Source: a virus. From it: DNA of 21,058 bases. The stretch's first letter is position 1. The number at the start of each line of letters is the position of its first letter. Below, piece by piece: positions 179 through 17,535 of the stretch. Location of the stretch: positions 1 to 21,058 of IMG/VR virus record IMGVR_UViG_3300040751_002495; one strand, written 5' to 3'. A program made the translations under genes and the position numbers. The notes below the pieces were generated by a model. That model was not told the origin of the DNA and did not search any database. It worked only from the letters and a program-made list of their open reading frames with translations.

Positions 179-352
179 TTAGTGAATTGATTTTTTTTGT
201 TGAGGACTTTCCTGACTTTGTGCTTTTTGTAAATTTTGGGAGACGTATGAAAAATTGACTTCTAGTTCCTTAACTCTAGTTCTTAGTTCTTGATTTTCTT
301 TTTCCAATTCGGAAATTTCTATTTGAAGTTCTGTTAAATCATTTTGAGTCAT
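179..352 (-). CDS. 57-aa coiled-coil protein between gp59 and gp32
   Basis: ATG at 350-352 overlaps the gp59 stop codon (ATGA), so translation is probably coupled. The 57-residue product starts MTQNDLTELQIEISELEKEN and keeps a heptad pattern of L/I/V and E/K over roughly residues 6-31, predicting a coiled coil, followed by a polar S/Q/K-rich tail. There is no membrane segment or signal peptide. I do not recognise the family. Its position inside the 33-59-32 block suggests a helper of replication or of late transcription, but that is inference from neighbours only. Confidence 0.7.
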   Translation of the reverse strand: MTQNDLTELQIEISELEKENQELRTRVKELEVNFSYVSQNLQKAQSQESPQQKKSIH

Positions 353-963
353 GAGTATATCTCCAATATAATTTGCTTTAACTTACTGTTGTCAGCATTG
401 GTAAAGTGGTATAAGAACGGACGATATTTTTTAATGAGTGAAACAGTATCATTCAGTATTATATCATCTTGCTTAGACCAATGTTTGGTGAAGTGTACCA
501 GATCATCAAGTAAAACAAGTGTTTCTAGTGACACAATACCTCTTTGGAAGAGACGAAATGCATACGGATGCTTTCCATCTTCTATCACAAAAAGATTATT
601 AAAGTTCTCCTCTTTACTATGAATTTTTGTTAGTTCTTCTTTAAAGTTGTATGTCAGTGATTCAGTTCGTTTCCGCCATTTTTTGTAAACGATATCATGA
701 TAAGGACAAAGTAAATCACCAATCCAACCTTGCCGATTTCCATCTACTGTAGAAGCTACTAAAAATTTTATCCATTCATCTTTACGACTATATTTTTTAA
801 GTGCTTTCTCAAACAAGTATTTATCTTTTCTTGCCATGAAAGAACTATGACTAGCAGAAATTTTTCCGTTGTATTTAAAATAGTCGTAAGCACCCTCCTT
901 GAAATGTCTTGTTATCGCAAGAAAGGATTGATATGCATCAAAAGAACTCATTTCATCACTCAT
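349..963 (-). CDS. 59: gp59 loader of gp41 helicase
   Basis: 204 residues, close to the 217 of T4 gp59. Matching landmarks in order: a Y-x-x-F-x-x-x-x-x-H-F N-terminal helix, the YDYFKYNGK segment (T4 YDVIKYNW), RKDKYLFEK (T4 RRDKYFFQK), WIGDL around residue 80 (T4 WIGDI), Y-x-F-x-E-E-L, and the C-terminal F-R-L-F-Q-x-x-I-V-S-x-E-T-L-V-L-L-D motif (T4 FKLLQSNIISFETFILLD). gp59 binds forked DNA and gp32 and loads the gp41 replicative helicase at the fork. The start overlaps the gp33 stop (ATGA) and its stop overlaps the next start, giving a coupled 33-59-X set as in T4. The family call comes from motif comparison from memory, strongly backed by gene order. Confidence 0.88.
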   Translation of the reverse strand: MSDEMSSFDAYQSFLAITRHFKEGAYDYFKYNGKISASHSSFMARKDKYLFEKALKKYSRKDEWIKFLVASTVDGNRQGWIGDLLCPYHDIVYKKWRKRTESLTYNFKEELTKIHSKEENFNNLFVIEDGKHPYAFRLFQRGIVSLETLVLLDDLVHFTKHWSKQDDIILNDTVSLIKKYRPFLYHFTNADNSKLKQIILEIYS

Positions 964-1181
964 AAAGGTAGTCTAGATGGTCTTTCTAAAAAATTTAATT
1001 CTTGAGCTTCAAATTTTATTTTTTCTTTAATGTTAATATTTAATAGTTTTGCGGCAGTTTCTATGTCGAATTCATTTTCTTCACACCACCAAGTAATAGC
1101 ATCCATATAAGTCAATTTTTTATCTTTAACAACGTTCTCTATTACTAAAGAAAATTTTTGAGTAGTCATTAAATCCAACAT
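960..1181 (-). CDS. 33: gp33-like late-transcription coactivator
   Basis: 73 residues. The central part (IENVVKDKKLTYMDAITWWC, then EEN, then a D-I-E-T-A-A-K-L-L segment and EKIKFEA) parallels T4 gp33 (IIEKMVEEFGMSYLEATTAFLEEN... IIEKIQSEA). gp33 binds the beta flap of host RNA polymerase and bridges it to the gp45 sliding clamp at late promoters, acting with the late sigma gp55. It is shorter than T4 gp33 (112 residues), lacking the acidic N-terminal extension and the LDFLL clamp-binding end; it stops at SRLPL instead. The chosen ATG at 1181 has AGGAG six bases upstream. It is first in the block with gp59 and gp32. Both an early-type and a late-type promoter lie upstream. Confidence 0.8.
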   Translation of the reverse strand: MLDLMTTQKFSLVIENVVKDKKLTYMDAITWWCEENEFDIETAAKLLNINIKEKIKFEAQELNFLERPSRLPL

Positions 1182-1247: not shown

Positions 1248-1259
1248 TATTTATAAATA
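1248..1259. promoter_or_regulatory. back-to-back T4-type late promoters sharing one palindrome
   Basis: The 12 bases TATTTATAAATA contain the T4 late promoter box TATAAATA on both strands: 1252-1259 on plus, facing the five-gene rightward operon, and 1248-1255 on minus, facing gp33. T4 late promoters consist of this -10 box alone and are read by gp55 polymerase with gp33 and the clamp. The plus-strand reading is the more convincing because no sigma70-like promoter serves that operon. Confidence 0.65.
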
Positions 1260-2338: not shown

Positions 2339-2917
2339 ATGGAATTTGTAGTAGATCAACTAGTAACTTGGTGGCAGTTCACTGTCGTTGGTGTTGTCAT
2401 TCTTATCGGATGGGTTGCTAATCTGTTTGGTGTAGACAACAAAAAAGAACTCATTGGATTCTCTTATAAAGAGATGCCACATATGCAACCGATTAAGATT
2501 GACACTGCAGGTAAAGGATTCTGGGGTGCAATATGGTTATGGTTTATGGGTGTACGTCAGTGGAGAATTGCAAAGGATTTTGAATATACTATTCATGGAG
2601 ACAAGTATGTTATCCCTGCAGGTTTTGAATTTGACGGTGCGTCGGTACCCAAGTTTCTTGCCGCATGGTTGTCACCAACGGGTGTTTTGTTGATGGGCGG
2701 TTTGATTCATGACTACGCATACAAATATGAAACATTAAAGCGTAAGGGTAAAGGTACCATGGGTACACTTACTCAAAAACAAGCAGATATCATTTTCCGT
2801 GATATCAACATCGAACAGAACGGATTCCATCTATTAAACTATCTTGCATATTGGGCATTGCGTATTGGTGGTTTTGTCGCATGGAATGGTCACAGAAAAC
2901 GGAATGCAAGAATATGA
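2339..2917 (+). CDS. DUF1353-family protein with N-terminal membrane span
   Basis: 192 residues. An N-terminal hydrophobic helix (about residues 9-29, WWQFTVVGVVILIGWVANLF) is followed by a DUF1353-like core: a strand with the V-I-P-A-G-F-E-F-D-G-A-S-V-P-K motif near residue 90, a G-G-L-I-H-D-Y-A-Y-K-Y motif near 120, A-D-I-I-F-R-D and a C-terminal Y-W-A-L-R-I-G-G helix. DUF1353 proteins are widespread in tailed phages and often sit near lysis or tail genes; their activity is not established to my knowledge. The conserved D-G-A-S and H-D are candidate functional residues. TTGGAGG precedes the ATG, which follows the SNase stop by one base; the stop overlaps the next start. Confidence 0.8.
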   Translation: MEFVVDQLVTWWQFTVVGVVILIGWVANLFGVDNKKELIGFSYKEMPHMQPIKIDTAGKGFWGAIWLWFMGVRQWRIAKDFEYTIHGDKYVIPAGFEFDGASVPKFLAAWLSPTGVLLMGGLIHDYAYKYETLKRKGKGTMGTLTQKQADIIFRDINIEQNGFHLLNYLAYWALRIGGFVAWNGHRKRNARI

Positions 2918-3147
2918 TTGAAGTTTTATTAGTTTTTTCGATTAACGGTGGACTTGAAGATATATCGGATCGAGTGTTTACATCTTATGAAGAATGTTCT
3001 GCATTTGTAAACACTGTTGCGAATATGGATGTCGTAAACTCAGATTATGGATTTAAATTCGTCGCATCTGACGGTATGCTTTTTGAAGGACAGTGCGTCG
3101 AGATGCGAGAATGGTTTCTTAAGAAAGGTGACTTTAAGTTAAGTTAA
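2914..3147 (+). CDS. 77-aa protein, last gene of the rightward operon
   Basis: The start at 2914 makes an ATGA overlap with the DUF1353 stop; a longer reading from 2851 would lie inside that gene and is rejected. The product begins MIEVLLVFSINGGLEDISDR and carries Y-E-E-C and Q-C-V-E-M-R-E-W motifs. It is a compact alpha/beta-like protein without signal peptide (the first hydrophobic run is a short strand). Family not recognised, although the pattern (F-x-S-Y-E-E-C-x-x-F-V-N, F-x-C-V-E) resembles small phage proteins of about 70 residues that often follow lysis-type genes. The TAA at 3145-3147 shares TTAA with the stop of the converging minus-strand gene. Confidence 0.7.
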   Translation: MIEVLLVFSINGGLEDISDRVFTSYEECSAFVNTVANMDVVNSDYGFKFVASDGMLFEGQCVEMREWFLKKGDFKLS

Positions 3148-3467
3148 ATCCCCGGTGGAAACATCATTCTCATATTATCACCACTTGCAAGAATGCAGGT
3201 GACACCAACTTGCTTATTTACTACAATGAATGACCAAGTGGTTGATCCTGCATTAATCCACAAAGAGTGGAACAGATCATGTCCTTGACCATTTTGACTT
3301 GGTGCCATCATAACAATTTCTTCCGAATACTTAGTTTTGATGCCTTCAAGAATGTGATCAGTGTCACCACAAAACATGGGTAATTGTTTTTCATCAAACG
3401 GAATGCCATTGTGTTCAGCAAATGATGCTGTCGTCCATAACAACATGAGTAATGCGAGTGTTCTCAT
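3144..3467 (-). CDS. small secreted two-cysteine protein
   Basis: 107 residues from ATG 3467, which has AGAGGCAAC upstream; a longer frame to 3539 would run into the tmRNA terminator and is rejected. The N-terminus MRTLALLMLLWTTASFA is a clear signal peptide with an A-x-A-like cut after SFA. The mature part holds two cysteines (M-F-C-G-D and V-T-C-I-L-A-S-G-D), which could form one disulfide in the periplasm, and an M-M-A-P-S-x-N-G motif. I know of similar secreted phage/bacterial hypothetical proteins but no function. It stands alone downstream of the tmRNA and converges with the late operon. Confidence 0.75.
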   Translation of the reverse strand: MRTLALLMLLWTTASFAEHNGIPFDEKQLPMFCGDTDHILEGIKTKYSEEIVMMAPSQNGQGHDLFHSLWINAGSTTWSFIVVNKQVGVTCILASGDNMRMMFPPGI

Positions 3468-3490
3468 GTGAGTTGCCTCTAGAAATGAAA

Positions 3491-3518
3491 GGGGTGTTTC
3501 TGTTGCCAAGTACACCCC
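3491..3518 (-). other. leader hairpin upstream of the secreted-protein gene
   Basis: Minus strand GGGGTGT (3512-3518) pairs with ACACCCC (3491-3497) across a 14-base loop, followed by TTTC, 23 bases before the ATG at 3467. It could be a weak second terminator behind the tmRNA or a 5' leader structure that shapes expression of the secreted protein. Confidence 0.4.
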
Positions 3519-3519
3519 C

Positions 3520-3548
3520 AAAAAACTCCGCAACCTCAATCAGGCTGC
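3520..3548 (-). terminator. hairpin plus T6 ending the tmRNA (also tmRNA P5-like helix)
   Basis: GCAGCC (3543-3548) pairs with GGTTGC (3530-3535) around a seven-base loop that contains the tag stop codon TGA, followed after GGAG by six T residues (3520-3525). This is a factor-independent terminator shape, and in tmRNA terms the helix right after the reading frame corresponds to P5. Confidence 0.6.
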
Positions 3549-3768
3549 AAGTGCAAATGTATTATCGTTTGCGTTTACTTTAAGTTGCTTCTTCGACCGG
3601 GAACCCCCAATCCTATCGTCTTCTGCCTTGACGGATTCTCCACTTTCCTACTTGCATCGATGTCGAATCTATATCTGCCCCATCATAAACACACCTTGAT
3701 GCACTTATGGTGGAGCAGGAGGGATTCGCACCCTCGTCCATCAACCTTTCGGTCTGCTTCACTGAATC
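3520..3768 (-). ncRNA. ssrA: circularly permuted (two-piece) tmRNA
   Basis: The tRNA-like half comes first. Acceptor piece 3768-3708: a GAGGG-TGCGAAT-CCCTC T-arm, then CTGCTCC-A-CCA ending at 3708, very close to the E. coli tmRNA end (GGACGCGGGTTCAACTCCCG... CCACCA). A 26-base intervening segment (3707-3682) follows. The coding piece starts at 3681 with GGGGCAG, which pairs fully (one G-U) with CTGCTCC, then the tmRNA hallmark TAGATTCGAC. CATCGA (3657-3662) pairs with TTGATG (3739-3744), the expected P2 joining the pieces. After AGTAAAC, the resume codon GCA at 3570-3572 opens the frame A-N-D-N-T-F-A-L-A-A-stop (3540-3572). Such RNAs rescue stalled ribosomes with SmpB and mark the products for ClpXP. 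The T-loop has TG where TT is usual. The 5' end is set by the late promoter and is approximate. The order acceptor-then-coding is that of alphaproteobacterial split tmRNAs. Confidence 0.93.
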
Positions 3769-3773
3769 AATAT

Positions 3774-3781
3774 TATTTATA
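3774..3781 (-). promoter_or_regulatory. T4-type late promoter for the tmRNA
   Basis: TATAAATA on the minus strand, with five bases before a G at 3768 that would be the start point. This is the spacing of T4 late promoters, and it places the RNA start just before the acceptor piece. It lies between the stop of the 59-aa gene (3789) and the tmRNA. Confidence 0.65.
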
Positions 3782-3788
3782 ACACATG

Positions 3789-3968
3789 TTAGACGTATTT
3801 GCAAGACATGTATTCTATCCACATTACAGCATCATACTCACTTTCAAACCATTGAATATGAGATTCCATTGTAATTATATGCCACATAAATGCTTGAACT
3901 TGACTGTCATACTTTGATACTTTGCATGCCCATTCACCAATTAAGACGGGATCGTATGACTCAAACAT
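3789..3968 (-). CDS. 59-aa acidic, aromatic-rich protein
   Basis: ATG at 3966-3968 with AGGAGAG directly upstream; it overlaps the 3' end of the exonuclease gene by 28 bases in another frame. The product starts MFESYDPVLIGEWACKVSKY and is rich in aromatic, M and acidic residues, with two cysteines (positions 15 and 56) and no membrane segment. It repeats an M-W/Q-W-F/W-I-E spacing of tryptophans. Family unknown. The stop lies eight bases upstream of the tmRNA late promoter, so it is the last protein gene of the leftward train before the RNA. Confidence 0.7.
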   Translation of the reverse strand: MFESYDPVLIGEWACKVSKYDSQVQAFMWHIITMESHIQWFESEYDAVMWIEYMSCKYV

Positions 3969-4621
3969 TTTTCTCTCCTATACTGAGCAATAGTTTCTAC
4001 GCATTCGTGAATGTAATTATCCCTTCTTTCCTCAAAGATTTGAGGTGGTTCTCCATCCACTGCGATTACCACTACTATTTTATTTATAGGAATTCCAGTT
4101 CTTTCTTCCCACATAACTGCATATGCGGAACACTGTTGAAAATAATTTGATATGTATTCTTTCTTTTTGAGTTTGCGACTTGTCTTGAAGTCGATGACTG
4201 CTATCTTCCCATCCCACTCAGCAATACAATCAACACGACCTGCAACACCAAGATACTCAGACCATAAAGGTACTTCTTGTGCGTAAACATTGTCAAGATG
4301 TTCGTCCAGAATGGGTTTGAGTGTGTTAAAGGTTTCTCTGTCGTTTGGAAGATACTTCTTTGCATCGAGATCATTGTTGATATAATGCTCACACATTGCG
4401 TGGACATTTGTTCCACGTCGTGATGCTTTGGTTGAGATTTTGTTTGCTTCTTCTTCACCAACTCGTTTCCTCCACTTCTTGATAGCATCTCGTGACAAAA
4501 TTGACAAGACTGTCGTAATAGAGGGCAACTTACCTGCGGGAGTGACATAAAACCTTTTCCCATTCTCAGATTCTGTTTGTAGTTCCTCTAACGCAAAGTT
4601 TTTGTGCGTAAAGGTTTTCAT
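3941..4621 (-). CDS. PD-(D/E)XK exonuclease, RecB/MGME1-like
   Basis: 226 residues. The nuclease core is visible: an N-terminal Y-V-T-P-A-G-K-L-P-S-I-T-T-V-L-S segment, K-A-S-R-R-G-T-N-V-H-A-M-C-E (the R-G-T-x-x-H helix, near residue 70), G-V-A-G-R-V-D-C-I-A-E (acidic Asp, near 127) and I-A-V-I-D-F-K-T-S (the D-x-K pair, near 143), then Q-x-x-A-Y-A motif of the following helix. This order is that of RecB-type ssDNA exonucleases and mitochondrial MGME1, which trim or degrade DNA ends with magnesium. In marine T4-like phages such proteins are common near replication genes. All catalytic residues are present. The start is coupled by ATGA overlap to the FmdB-like gene upstream. Confidence 0.85.
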   Translation of the reverse strand: MKTFTHKNFALEELQTESENGKRFYVTPAGKLPSITTVLSILSRDAIKKWRKRVGEEEANKISTKASRRGTNVHAMCEHYINNDLDAKKYLPNDRETFNTLKPILDEHLDNVYAQEVPLWSEYLGVAGRVDCIAEWDGKIAVIDFKTSRKLKKKEYISNYFQQCSAYAVMWEERTGIPINKIVVVIAVDGEPPQIFEERRDNYIHECVETIAQYRREKCLSHTIPS

Positions 4622-4914
4622 TGTTTTTTTGCTCTATGTTTTTCTAAGACTTGTTTTGTTTTGATCTCTTTTGTAGTTCTGTTTCCGATTTTCTCTGAGA
4701 GAGCACTTTGCGGATGTGCTTCCGCGATGCGCGCAAGATTTTCTTTCCAACCGTTGTCATTTTTAAATCCTCCAGATCCACGAACCATTGATGGTGCACC
4801 AATAATTTGTTTGATGTGTTGATTGTCTTTTAGATATTCTTCTTTCTTAGATATCGTTAACTGTAAACTAAATCTTGTGCCAGTTTCACTATCTTCAAAA
4901 TCATACATTGGCAT
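4618..4914 (-). CDS. FmdB-like small protein lacking the zinc-ribbon cysteines
   Basis: 98 residues from ATG 4914 (MPMYDFEDSETGTRFSLQLT). FmdB-family proteins start M-P-x-Y-x-x-x-C-x-x-C-G-x-x-F-E and end the first domain with I-K-x-x-I-G-A-P-S; here Y-D-F-E-D-S-E-T-G-T-R-F and H-I-K-Q-I-I-G-A-P-S-M-V keep that frame, but both cysteine positions are replaced, so no zinc would be bound. A basic C-terminal helix (about 60-98, R-T-T-K-E-I-K-T-K-Q) follows. The start inside the end of the upstream gene (14-base overlap) is chosen because MPMY is the canonical beginning. It is probably a small regulatory or nucleic-acid-associated protein; function unproven. Confidence 0.65.
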   Translation of the reverse strand: MPMYDFEDSETGTRFSLQLTISKKEEYLKDNQHIKQIIGAPSMVRGSGGFKNDNGWKENLARIAEAHPQSALSEKIGNRTTKEIKTKQVLEKHRAKKQ

Positions 4915-5449
4915 AACTAAACCACTCCGGTATATTTCTATTTGTCCACTTGGCAAACTTTGCCTTCTCTTTTATATAGTAGTTTTGATATGCATTGATT
5001 GCGTCAGACATCTTACAGTCGTCTGGCATTGCTTGTGGAGGGTCTGTGAAAGAACCGTCAGGAATATTCATTGGGGTATGGGATAGTGCAGATGCAAGTT
5101 TGGTATACGTTGCATGACTTTTTCCGTAACGATGTGTATACTCAAGACACAGTTGAAACCACATAGAATATAACCAACGATAGTTGCCACTGGACTGACG
5201 TGCCCAAATAGCAGAAGGGTGATTGATATGGGATGCCTTGTAGTACAAGTCTTCGTAATGCTTGTGTGGCATCAACCATCGTTTGATACGACGATTGTTT
5301 GCAGTACGATCTTCATATACTGTACCATCGAGCACCCGGTGAGCAGTCGACATTAACTGTGCATACTCGATAATCATTTTGACTACGTGCTTATCACAAT
5401 GATCTTGTGCGCACCTAAGAGGATTCTTGTCTAGATAAAATACGTTCAT
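4901..5449 (-). CDS. conserved T4-like phage protein, 182 aa
   Basis: The N-terminus MNVFYLDKNPLRCAQDHCDK is followed by H-V-V-K-M-I-I-E-Y-A-Q-L-M-S-T-A-H-R; mid-protein motifs are H-P-S-A-I-W-A-R-Q-S-S-G-N-Y-R-W-L near residue 80 and E-Y-T-H-R-Y-G-K-x-H. This pattern is one I know as a conserved hypothetical protein of marine T4-like phages. The layout (C-x-x-x-H-C-D-K-H near the N-terminus, then H-P, then N-Y-x-W-L) distantly recalls pyrimidine-dimer glycosylases such as DenV (start, H-x-x-x-E-x-R-E-L, G-H-V), but the key residues do not line up well and I do not assign it. No membrane segment; cytoplasmic. The start overlaps the upstream stop (ATGA). Confidence 0.75.
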   Translation of the reverse strand: MNVFYLDKNPLRCAQDHCDKHVVKMIIEYAQLMSTAHRVLDGTVYEDRTANNRRIKRWLMPHKHYEDLYYKASHINHPSAIWARQSSGNYRWLYSMWFQLCLEYTHRYGKSHATYTKLASALSHTPMNIPDGSFTDPPQAMPDDCKMSDAINAYQNYYIKEKAKFAKWTNRNIPEWFSYANV

Positions 5450-16298: not shown

Positions 16299-17045
16299 TT
16301 ATTTCCTAATTAATTTAATCATATAACCAGTCAGATCCGGAAACCCATGACAAACTGTCCATGGTTTTTCGTGATGCTCTTTATGATAACCACCATCACC
16401 ACACAAAATCCAACTGAGGATCGGACTATTAATTGTATCACCCTTTTCGTTGTGTGTAAAGGTGTTCACTGATGATGATATGTTCAGAGATATGAAAACA
16501 GGAAACGAGTATAATGCCCAAATTAACATGGGTTCTACAATCAAAATTAAACAGATCCAACTCACAATTATATGCACGTAATATGTATCCGAAAACACAA
16601 GACCTTTTTGTTCTTTTAATTTTTCGTATCTTTCGGTGGGCACCAATTTCCAATCCCAATCAAACCACGATCTAAAATATGCACGAATCTTCCCTAAGTG
16701 TTTCGGGGAATGTGGGTCTACCTTAGAATCTGAATATTCATGATGAATATCGTGTATATTTGACCATTTCAAAATACTTGAATTAGTAATAATCGTAGAT
16801 ACAAAAACAAGAACATAGTGATTAAAAGAATTGACTTTATAACTTTGATGAGAAAAATATCTATGCAGTCCTACTAGTAATCCAAACACTGCTATAAGAT
16901 ATCCAATAGCAAAACTTAAAAAGATTTGCTCGGTAGATAAAAAATAAAATGAAAACGGAATACTAATAAGAACCAAAATTTGCAAAAGTCCACTTTGACT
17001 CTTTCCTGATTCCTGTGTGAACGATCCTTTAAAAGGAATATGCAT
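16299..17045 (-). CDS. fatty-acid desaturase
   Basis: 248 residues from ATG 17045, preferred to an in-frame ATG at 17099 because AGGAGAT lies just before it. Membrane enzyme with the three histidine boxes of delta-9/acyl-type desaturases: H-R-Y-F-S-H (box 1), H-D-I-H-H-E-Y-S-D (box 2) and Y-H-K-E-H-H-E-K-P (box 3, with G-G-x-x-H). Hydrophobic segments occur before box 1 and between boxes 2 and 3. The boxes bind a di-iron centre that inserts a double bond into acyl chains with oxygen. Phage copies could adjust membrane fluidity or lipids of the infected cell. It is last in the tRNA-RNA-desaturase transcript order. Confidence 0.88.
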   Translation of the reverse strand: MHIPFKGSFTQESGKSQSGLLQILVLISIPFSFYFLSTEQIFLSFAIGYLIAVFGLLVGLHRYFSHQSYKVNSFNHYVLVFVSTIITNSSILKWSNIHDIHHEYSDSKVDPHSPKHLGKIRAYFRSWFDWDWKLVPTERYEKLKEQKGLVFSDTYYVHIIVSWICLILIVEPMLIWALYSFPVFISLNISSSVNTFTHNEKGDTINSPILSWILCGDGGYHKEHHEKPWTVCHGFPDLTGYMIKLIRK

Positions 17046-17071
17046 ATAGAGATCTCCTAAAAATAAAATGC

Positions 17072-17225
17072 GGAACGGGTGGATTAGGGTAACCACCAAG
17101 GGGGTACGATCAGATGTACCTTTCTACATAGACCCCCAACAACTCGCAACCCCGCTTAGGGTATGGACGCTATCCCTTTGAGTTTACCTTACCCCCCATC
17201 TGCGAGAGGCATTCAGTCACGTTCC
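17072..17225 (-). ncRNA. unrecognised multi-branched structured RNA candidate
   Basis: About 154 bases between tRNA-Cys and the desaturase with many complementary segments. On the minus strand: GGAACG (17220-17225) pairs with CGTTCC (17072-17077) and closes the whole region; CTCGCA (17201-17206) pairs with TGCGAG (17143-17148); inside that, GGGTA (17190-17194) pairs with TACCC (17159-17163); GGGGGT (17132-17137) pairs with ACCCCC (17100-17105) and encloses ATGTA-GAAAGG-TACAT; GGTGG and CCACC (17078-17097) form a hairpin. No reading frame fits. It may be a processed phage RNA or a leader of the desaturase gene. Not tRNA, tmRNA, RNase P or a riboswitch that I recognise. Confidence 0.5.
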
Positions 17226-17250: not shown

Positions 17251-17325
17251 TGGAGTGGATGATAGGAATCGAACCTACTTCAAACTGATTTGCAGTCAGT
17301 CACCTAACCATTCAGTCACATCCAC
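17251..17325 (-). tRNA. tRNA-Cys(GCA)
   Basis: 75 bases including encoded CCA. Acceptor GTGGATG pairs with CATCCAC; anticodon arm ACTGA-CTGCAAA-TCAGT gives anticodon GCA; T arm GTAGG-TTCGATT-CCTAT; the discriminator base is T (U73), the known cysteine identity base. The third of three tRNA genes in order of transcription. Confidence 0.92.
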
Positions 17326-17333
17326 GAATTTGG

Positions 17334-17363
17334 GACTGTCTTTTTCGCATGCGAGGCACAGTC
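17334..17363 (-). other. hairpin between tRNA-Asn and tRNA-Cys
   Basis: Minus strand GACTGT and ACAGTC (17358-17363 and 17334-17339) pair and enclose TCGCATGCGA, itself self-complementary. It lies in the 50-base spacer and could be a processing or pause element. Confidence 0.45.
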
Positions 17364-17375
17364 ATTCCATTTAAA

Positions 17376-17451
17376 TGGCTGGGGTAGTTGGGATCGAACC
17401 AACGACATATGGATTAACAGTCCACCGTTCTACCTACTGAACTATACCCCA
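17376..17451 (-). tRNA. tRNA-Asn(GTT)
   Basis: 76 bases with encoded CCA. Acceptor TGGGGTA pairs with TACCCCA, discriminator G; anticodon arm GTGGA-CTGTTAA-TCCAT gives GTT; T arm GTTGG-TTCGATC-CCAAC. All conserved bases present; the D-arm TAGTTCAGTAGGTAGAA is standard. Confidence 0.93.
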
Positions 17452-17458
17452 AAAATTT

Positions 17459-17535
17459 TGGTGTCCCCTGCAGGAGTCGAACCTGCGACCTACTGCTTAG
17501 AAGGCAGTTGTTCTATCCAACTGAACTAAGGAGAC
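17459..17535 (-). tRNA. tRNA-Arg(TCT)
   Basis: 77 bases with encoded CCA. Acceptor GTCTCCT pairs with AGGGGAC (one G-T pair), discriminator A; anticodon loop in CTGCCTTCTAAGCAG gives TCT, reading AGA and AGG; T arm GCAGG-TTCGACT-CCTGC. First tRNA in the transcript. Its codons are often rare in hosts but frequent in AT-rich phages. Confidence 0.93.

Follow-up and report, generated by a model that had tools for sequence, protein, structure and literature searches.

Two-piece tmRNA genes in phages form a published class. The closest described case is the T4-like Methylophilales phage Melnitz, whose two-piece tmRNA is accompanied by a glutamine riboswitch (PMC9004378). The same paper lists 402 phages and 133 unique tmRNA structures, 53 of them two-piece and 50 of those aquatic, and finds a permuted tmRNA in 17 of 47 contigs related to Melnitz. 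PMC11915505, the source of the RF04321 model, counts 79 tmRNA sequences from bacteriophages, all forms taken together, and a tmRNA gene has been described in a Maribacter phage (PMC11590407). PMC5587285 describes a phage SspB without a tmRNA, and PMC10504331 gives no tmRNA for Skadi. We analysed the IMG/VR virus record IMGVR_UViG_3300040751_002495 (21,058 bases, probably a fragment; hereafter the window). The initial annotation had placed a permuted tmRNA in a T4-like phage without knowing of a precedent; this assignment is supported, and an earlier description exists in Melnitz and its relatives (PMC9004378).

The proposed permuted tmRNA at 3520-3768 was borne out on the minus strand. ARAGORN returned a permuted tmRNA at 3449-3800 with the tag ANDNTFALAA, and RF04321 (tmRNA_permuted) matched 3540-3768 over all 213 model positions with 105.7 bits (E 4.5e-20), against a curated cut-off of 47 bits. 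Among the clade models, RF01849 (alpha_tmRNA) scored 57.6 bits, above its cut-off of 50, and RF01850 (beta_tmRNA) 76.9 bits over its full length, below its cut-off of 84. The tag pattern occurred once in the window and not at all in 100 shuffles of it. The parts of the gene are as follows.

3708-3768, minus strand: acceptor piece, with ACCA encoded at its end (RF04321, sequence)
3739-3744, minus strand: P2 helix strand TTGATG (pairing read from the sequence)
3719-3735, minus strand: T arm GAGGG-TGCGAAT-CCCTC (RF04321, sequence)
3712-3718, minus strand: 3' strand of the acceptor stem, CTGCTCC (acceptor-stem parse, sequence)
3682-3707, minus strand: spacer of 26 bases, expected to be cut out (sequence)
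3486-3681, minus strand: coding piece, 3' end approximate (Rfam models)
3675-3681, minus strand: 5' strand of the acceptor stem, GGGGCAG, with G3-U70 (acceptor-stem parse, sequence)
3657-3662, minus strand: P2 helix strand CATCGA (sequence)
3540-3572, minus strand: tag frame ANDNTFALAA and stop TGA (ARAGORN, pattern search, sequence)
3491-3518, minus strand: 3' hairpin GGGGTGT...ACACCCC (Rfam, folding, sequence)

The layout is that of RF04321, with the acceptor piece 5' of the coding piece, a spacer between them and halves that pair, and the general marks of a tmRNA are present as well: a G3-U70 acceptor pair, CCA, and a tag frame with a hydrophobic end and a stop. The anticipated ends of the pieces hold when the letters are checked, the encoded CCA finishing at 3708 and the coding piece starting at 3681, and ARAGORN and the sequence both confirm the reading frame A-N-D-N-T-F-A-L-A-A-stop. 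Other details needed amending. The acceptor halves, described as fully complementary, do form seven pairs, six of them Watson-Crick and one a G-U at pair 3. The P2 helix CATCGA/TTGATG joins the pieces as proposed and includes one G-U. The span was right for the core, but the coding piece continues beyond 3520 to the hairpin at 3491-3518, which closes it and has a loop like that of the alpha model; at full length, the alpha and beta models extend to 3488 and 3486, respectively. The coding piece alone folds with a z-score of -1.53 against shuffles, 15 of 200 being equally good, a modest value that says little because the RNA is rich in pseudoknots. The element is thus a real and complete phage-borne circularly permuted tmRNA gene, and its identity is well supported.

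The acceptor stem was compared among 39 distinct phage permuted tmRNAs, 28 of which were parsed by a simple pattern that missed the other 11. All seven pairs form in 28 of 28 parsed genes, with a bias towards pairing in that the 5' strand was the best-fitting of six offsets. G3-U70, the alanine identity element, is constant throughout these 28, and two other positions vary: pair 5 is C-G in 11, A-U in 5 and G-C in 12, and pair 6 is A-U in 3, U-A in 18 and C-G in 7. The phage acceptor stem varies by compensating changes, although many of the 28 rows are closely related and do not amount to 28 independent events.

Several genes surround the RNA and describe its phage setting.

3941-4621, minus strand: PD-(D/E)XK exonuclease, directly upstream of the tmRNA (Pfam/PHROG scans)
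3144-3467, minus strand: small ORF with a signal-like start, directly downstream of the tmRNA, kept in L198 (89%) and L199 (72%)
960-1181, minus strand: gp33-like late-transcription coactivator (PF16805, phrog_254; profile matches)
349-963, minus strand: gp59 helicase loader (Pfam/PHROG scans)

Judged by its gene content, the window phage is T4-like, since gp59, gp33, a T4-type RNase H and the PD-(D/E)XK exonuclease are all encoded; no capsid or tail gene was found among the scanned ORFs of this fragment. The ORF at 4618-4956 was considered as gp33 and rejected: it is a phrog_385 regulator whose Melnitz counterpart is another gene, and the gp33 match belongs to the ORF at 960-1181. A search of the phage collection gave its best matches to Melnitz, at 71% DNA identity over one gene, or 7% of the 8-kb query, and the RNase H proteins of the two phages are 54.6% identical. 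Elsewhere, on the minus strand, the window carries three clustered tRNA genes (Cys, Asn, Arg; 17251-17535), a peroxiredoxin-like (Redoxin) phage gene (14906-15433) and a 266-residue membrane-like protein with histidine clusters (16299-17099). This last protein had no Pfam match and a sole, weak PHROG match of unknown function; its histidine clusters resemble those of a fatty acid desaturase.

Relatives of the exonuclease show how the locus is kept. We examined the best 80 of 344 loci encoding one, 60 of them with at least 1500 bases downstream, and ARAGORN placed a permuted tmRNA downstream in 3 of these 60 (3 of 80 overall): L198, L199 and L203, whose exonucleases are 88%, 89% and 62% identical to that of the window. 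In all three, gp59 follows the tmRNA; in Melnitz two small genes separate the exonuclease from the tmRNA, which gp33 and gp59 follow. The gene therefore occupies the same place in four other phage records, with the exonuclease on one side and gp33/gp59 or gp59 on the other. Presence at 3 of 60 loci implies that the tmRNA is dispensable to most relatives, and some of their tmRNAs may have been overlooked, as ARAGORN missed 4 of 28 tag loci that pass RF04321.

Comparison of the two nearest loci separates the RNA from its surroundings. The IMG/VR contig L199/L193 (102 kb) resembles the window in its exonuclease, the place of its tmRNA and its tag, and is the nearest relative in the RNA itself (acceptor part 96%, coding part 95% identical), yet its spacer has 97 bases instead of 26. 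Several of its neighbouring genes are much less alike than its tmRNA, with gp59 69%, the ORF at 3144 72% and that at 1278 32% identical. The IMG/VR contig L198/L061 (25 kb) presents the reverse. It shares with the window the exonuclease, the place of the tmRNA and a 26-base spacer, and identity reaches 88-98% in its exonuclease, downstream ORF, nuclease and ORF at 1278, against 70% in gp59 and in part of a regulator. Despite these neighbours, its RNA core (998-1270, against 3486-3768 in the window) is largely different and its tag is its own, ANDETFALAA. Acceptor pairs 5 and 6 are changed on both sides between the two, and so is the 3' hairpin stem, which reads GGGGAC...GTCCCC in L198. Neither L198 nor L199 gave a match to DUF1353, and L199 gave none to the nuclease either. 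Because L198 combines like neighbours with an unlike RNA, and L199 less-alike neighbours with a like RNA, the tmRNA core looks as though phages swap it while its place in the genome stays the same.

The exact tag pattern was found in 29 virus contigs. Of these, 28 (26 of 27, and two more) pass the RF04321 cut-off, and ARAGORN returns a permuted tmRNA for 24. It matched no record of an 84,980-species prokaryote collection (contigs under 3,000 bases removed). When any residue was allowed at tag position 5, the same collection gave 22 genome loci; ARAGORN found an ANDNxFALAA tag in 14 of these, all in one-piece tmRNAs. A search of virus contigs for the permuted arrangement gave at least 120 loci, and 24 of those 120 are permuted tmRNAs by ARAGORN, two of them with the window tag; these 24 and Melnitz all pass RF04321 (25 of 25). 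Two virus permuted tmRNAs, at L038 8057-8380 and L041 1159-1482, bear the odd tag AYTYNTALAA, in which the usual AND start is missing. ANDNTFALAA needs six changes on a tree of 81 tmRNAs that was inferred with the tag codons removed and whose deep branches are unresolved. Its carriers may nevertheless share it by common descent, and a host using it may be unsampled. The string 'ANDN' is absent from the main text of PMC9004378, and among the articles listed for phage tmRNA none was seen to deal with this tag or with the promoter described below.

Upstream of the RNA lie two promoter-like elements.

3799-3804, minus strand: TTGCAA, a weak -35-like box (4 of 6 to TTGACA) separated from the -10 element by 17 bases (sequence)
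3774-3781, minus strand: TATAAATA, both a -10-like element and the T4-type late promoter octamer, with 5 bases between it and the start of the RNA model (sequence)

The octamer stands 4-9 bases ahead of the RNA start in 18 of 48 rows, a set that includes near-duplicates and leaves out five tag loci lacking locus coordinates. Counted by distinct phage genes it is upstream in 16 of 39, in 14 of these at 41-45 bases before the T arm, so that most phage tmRNAs in the set do without it; by chance, 0.02 octamers would be expected per 180 bases of the phage loci. Among bacterial loci, whose base composition was not matched to that of the phages, it is upstream of one of the 28 alpha tmRNAs and of none of the 15 beta ones. 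In Melnitz it lies at 46000-46007, inside the annotated tmRNA. At window 1248-1259, between gp33/gp59 (minus) and the ORF at 1278 (plus), two overlapping divergent octamers resemble a back-to-back late promoter, to judge from their arrangement.

How such a promoter is used bears on when the RNA would act. A late-only promoter, confining the tmRNA to the end of infection, would suit the exact octamer, the five octamer sites in the window (1.6 expected), the late coactivator encoded there and the weak -35 box, but we consider it unlikely. The -35 position was examined in 17 of the 18 rows with the octamer, representing 14 distinct contexts, several of them closely related. In 11 of the 14 a TTGACA-like box, matching in 5 or all 6 letters, stands at a distance of exactly 17 bases; the window and L198 tmRNAs reach 4 of 6, one context has none, and L199 has TTGACA itself where the window has its weak box. 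Moreover, PMC9004378 labels the Melnitz tmRNA promoter early; its late-promoter query was TATAAAT, with sites neither intergenic nor near ORF ends excluded. A late-only assignment drawn from the octamer alone, which contradicts that label, was dropped in view of the box at 17 bases, and the early label stands. Because the box keeps exactly this distance in most distinct contexts, the tmRNA site reads as composite, a putative sigma-70 promoter in which the -10 element would also serve as a T4-type late element. Across the window and L003-L122, 4 of 80 octamer sites have a TTGACA-like box, and two of the four, in L098 and L122, should be tmRNA sites themselves. A general promoter scan of the window found 4 sites against 5.0 expected; the tmRNA site is not among them because the scan demands T at position 6. 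Literature containing both TATAAATA and tmRNA, as far as its searchable text extends, yielded no work on a phage tmRNA promoter.

Two further explanations concern why the gene is present at all. The phage tmRNA might chiefly change the address of tagged proteins, competing with host tmRNA and adding a tag to which host adaptors or proteases respond differently. The exact tag's presence in 29 virus contigs but in no genome of the prokaryote collection and its six changes on the tree would fit such a role, as does the reported inhibition of the endogenous E. coli tmRNA by a tagless tmRNA form from phage DS6A (PMC11915505). The tag, however, shares its ANDN start with alpha tags, ends in the LAA that is frequent among ordinary tags and should feed the same proteases, and a host with the same tag may simply be unsampled; we regard this explanation as unlikely. 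If the phage tag were handled unlike that of the host, such phages would re-address protein degradation during infection. Less probable still, and in our view very improbable, is a captured host gene or attachment-site remnant lying idle in the phage. tmRNA genes are frequent integration sites and exchange with a prophage has been raised (PMC9004378), but the gene is complete, sits at one place in five phage records and shows compensating acceptor-stem changes. No integrase match was obtained among the approximately 20 window ORFs scanned with Pfam or PHROGs, and BLAST against 398 genomes of one phylum gave no close chromosomal copy: matches in 83 genomes at E up to 0.01 were short only, the best spanning 46 bases (E 9e-6), and most among the matches listed fall on the T arm.

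A functional, phage-maintained permuted tmRNA gene is therefore the reading we hold to be highly likely. It rests on the ARAGORN and RF04321 matches with a complete two-piece anatomy, on an acceptor stem that pairs fully around a constant G3-U70 while pairs 5 and 6 vary, on mature parts nearly identical to those of L199 despite a different spacer, and on the shared locus in Melnitz, L198, L199 and L203 together with the late coactivator gp33. Counting against it are the negative searches for SmpB and SspB, the 3 of 60 loci, the weak -35 box and the unremarkable folding z-score. No SmpB was found among 10 records that took in the window, Melnitz and two IMG/VR contigs longer than 100 kb, and no SspB among 11, most of the records being fragments; both searches were positive in control genomes. 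Host proteins would thus have to serve. The window tmRNA is probably a working one. Its likely role, and still the best reading, is ribosome rescue supplied by the phage, possibly with a phage-specific tag. During infection it would be transcribed from an element readable by both the host sigma-70 polymerase and the phage late system; host tRNA-processing enzymes would remove the 26-base spacer, and host alanyl-tRNA synthetase would charge the RNA. Host SmpB and EF-Tu would then bring it to ribosomes that have stalled on broken mRNAs, and the rescued products, tagged AANDNTFALAA, would be degraded by host proteases. As a broader and tentative proposal, somewhat more doubtful than not, aquatic T4-like phages may keep their own permuted tmRNA lineages at a fixed exonuclease-gp33/gp59 locus, swap RNA cores there, use ANDNTFALAA, seen in no sampled prokaryote, and rely on a composite promoter that would start transcription where the acceptor piece begins, early in infection as well as late.

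Among bacterial systems, those of two clades come closest to the window tmRNA. The permuted tmRNAs of Betaproteobacteria (RF01850) provide the better clade model, full-length though below its cut-off, yet 14 of 14 ordinary bacterial tags sampled start with ANDE, unlike the ANDN of the window. Those of Alphaproteobacteria (RF01849) share the ANDN start and the 3' hairpin loop, and their model, though above its cut-off, scores lower than the beta model. On the tree, the alpha sequences, 28 rows in all, form a separate group (100/100 support); being the best-scoring ones, they may lack streamlined alphas such as SAR11. For an alpha or beta origin, the Rfam scores conflict and the tree backbone is long-branched, its bootstrap not settled. 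The closest described counterpart is the ssrA of Melnitz (MZ577097, 45984-46436), a phage of an OM43 methylotroph: it is likewise permuted, passes RF04321 at 113.4 bits, lies in a T4-like phage between the exonuclease and gp33/gp59, and has the same TATAAATA 5 bases before the RNA. It differs in its tag, ANDNYVPVDYALAA, in being alpha-type by Rfam (106.7 bits) and in the glutamine riboswitch beside it (RF01739, 52.8 bits), which had no match at E up to 1 in window 2900-4200. Since the phage two-piece class is already published, the window tmRNA is a further, largely expected case; its unexpected aspects are a tag seen in viruses only within the collections searched, a composite promoter in a subset of phages and the apparent exchange of RNA cores. 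Set beside Melnitz, the window adds a well-delimited case with close relatives, through which the purpose of phage permuted tmRNAs becomes testable.
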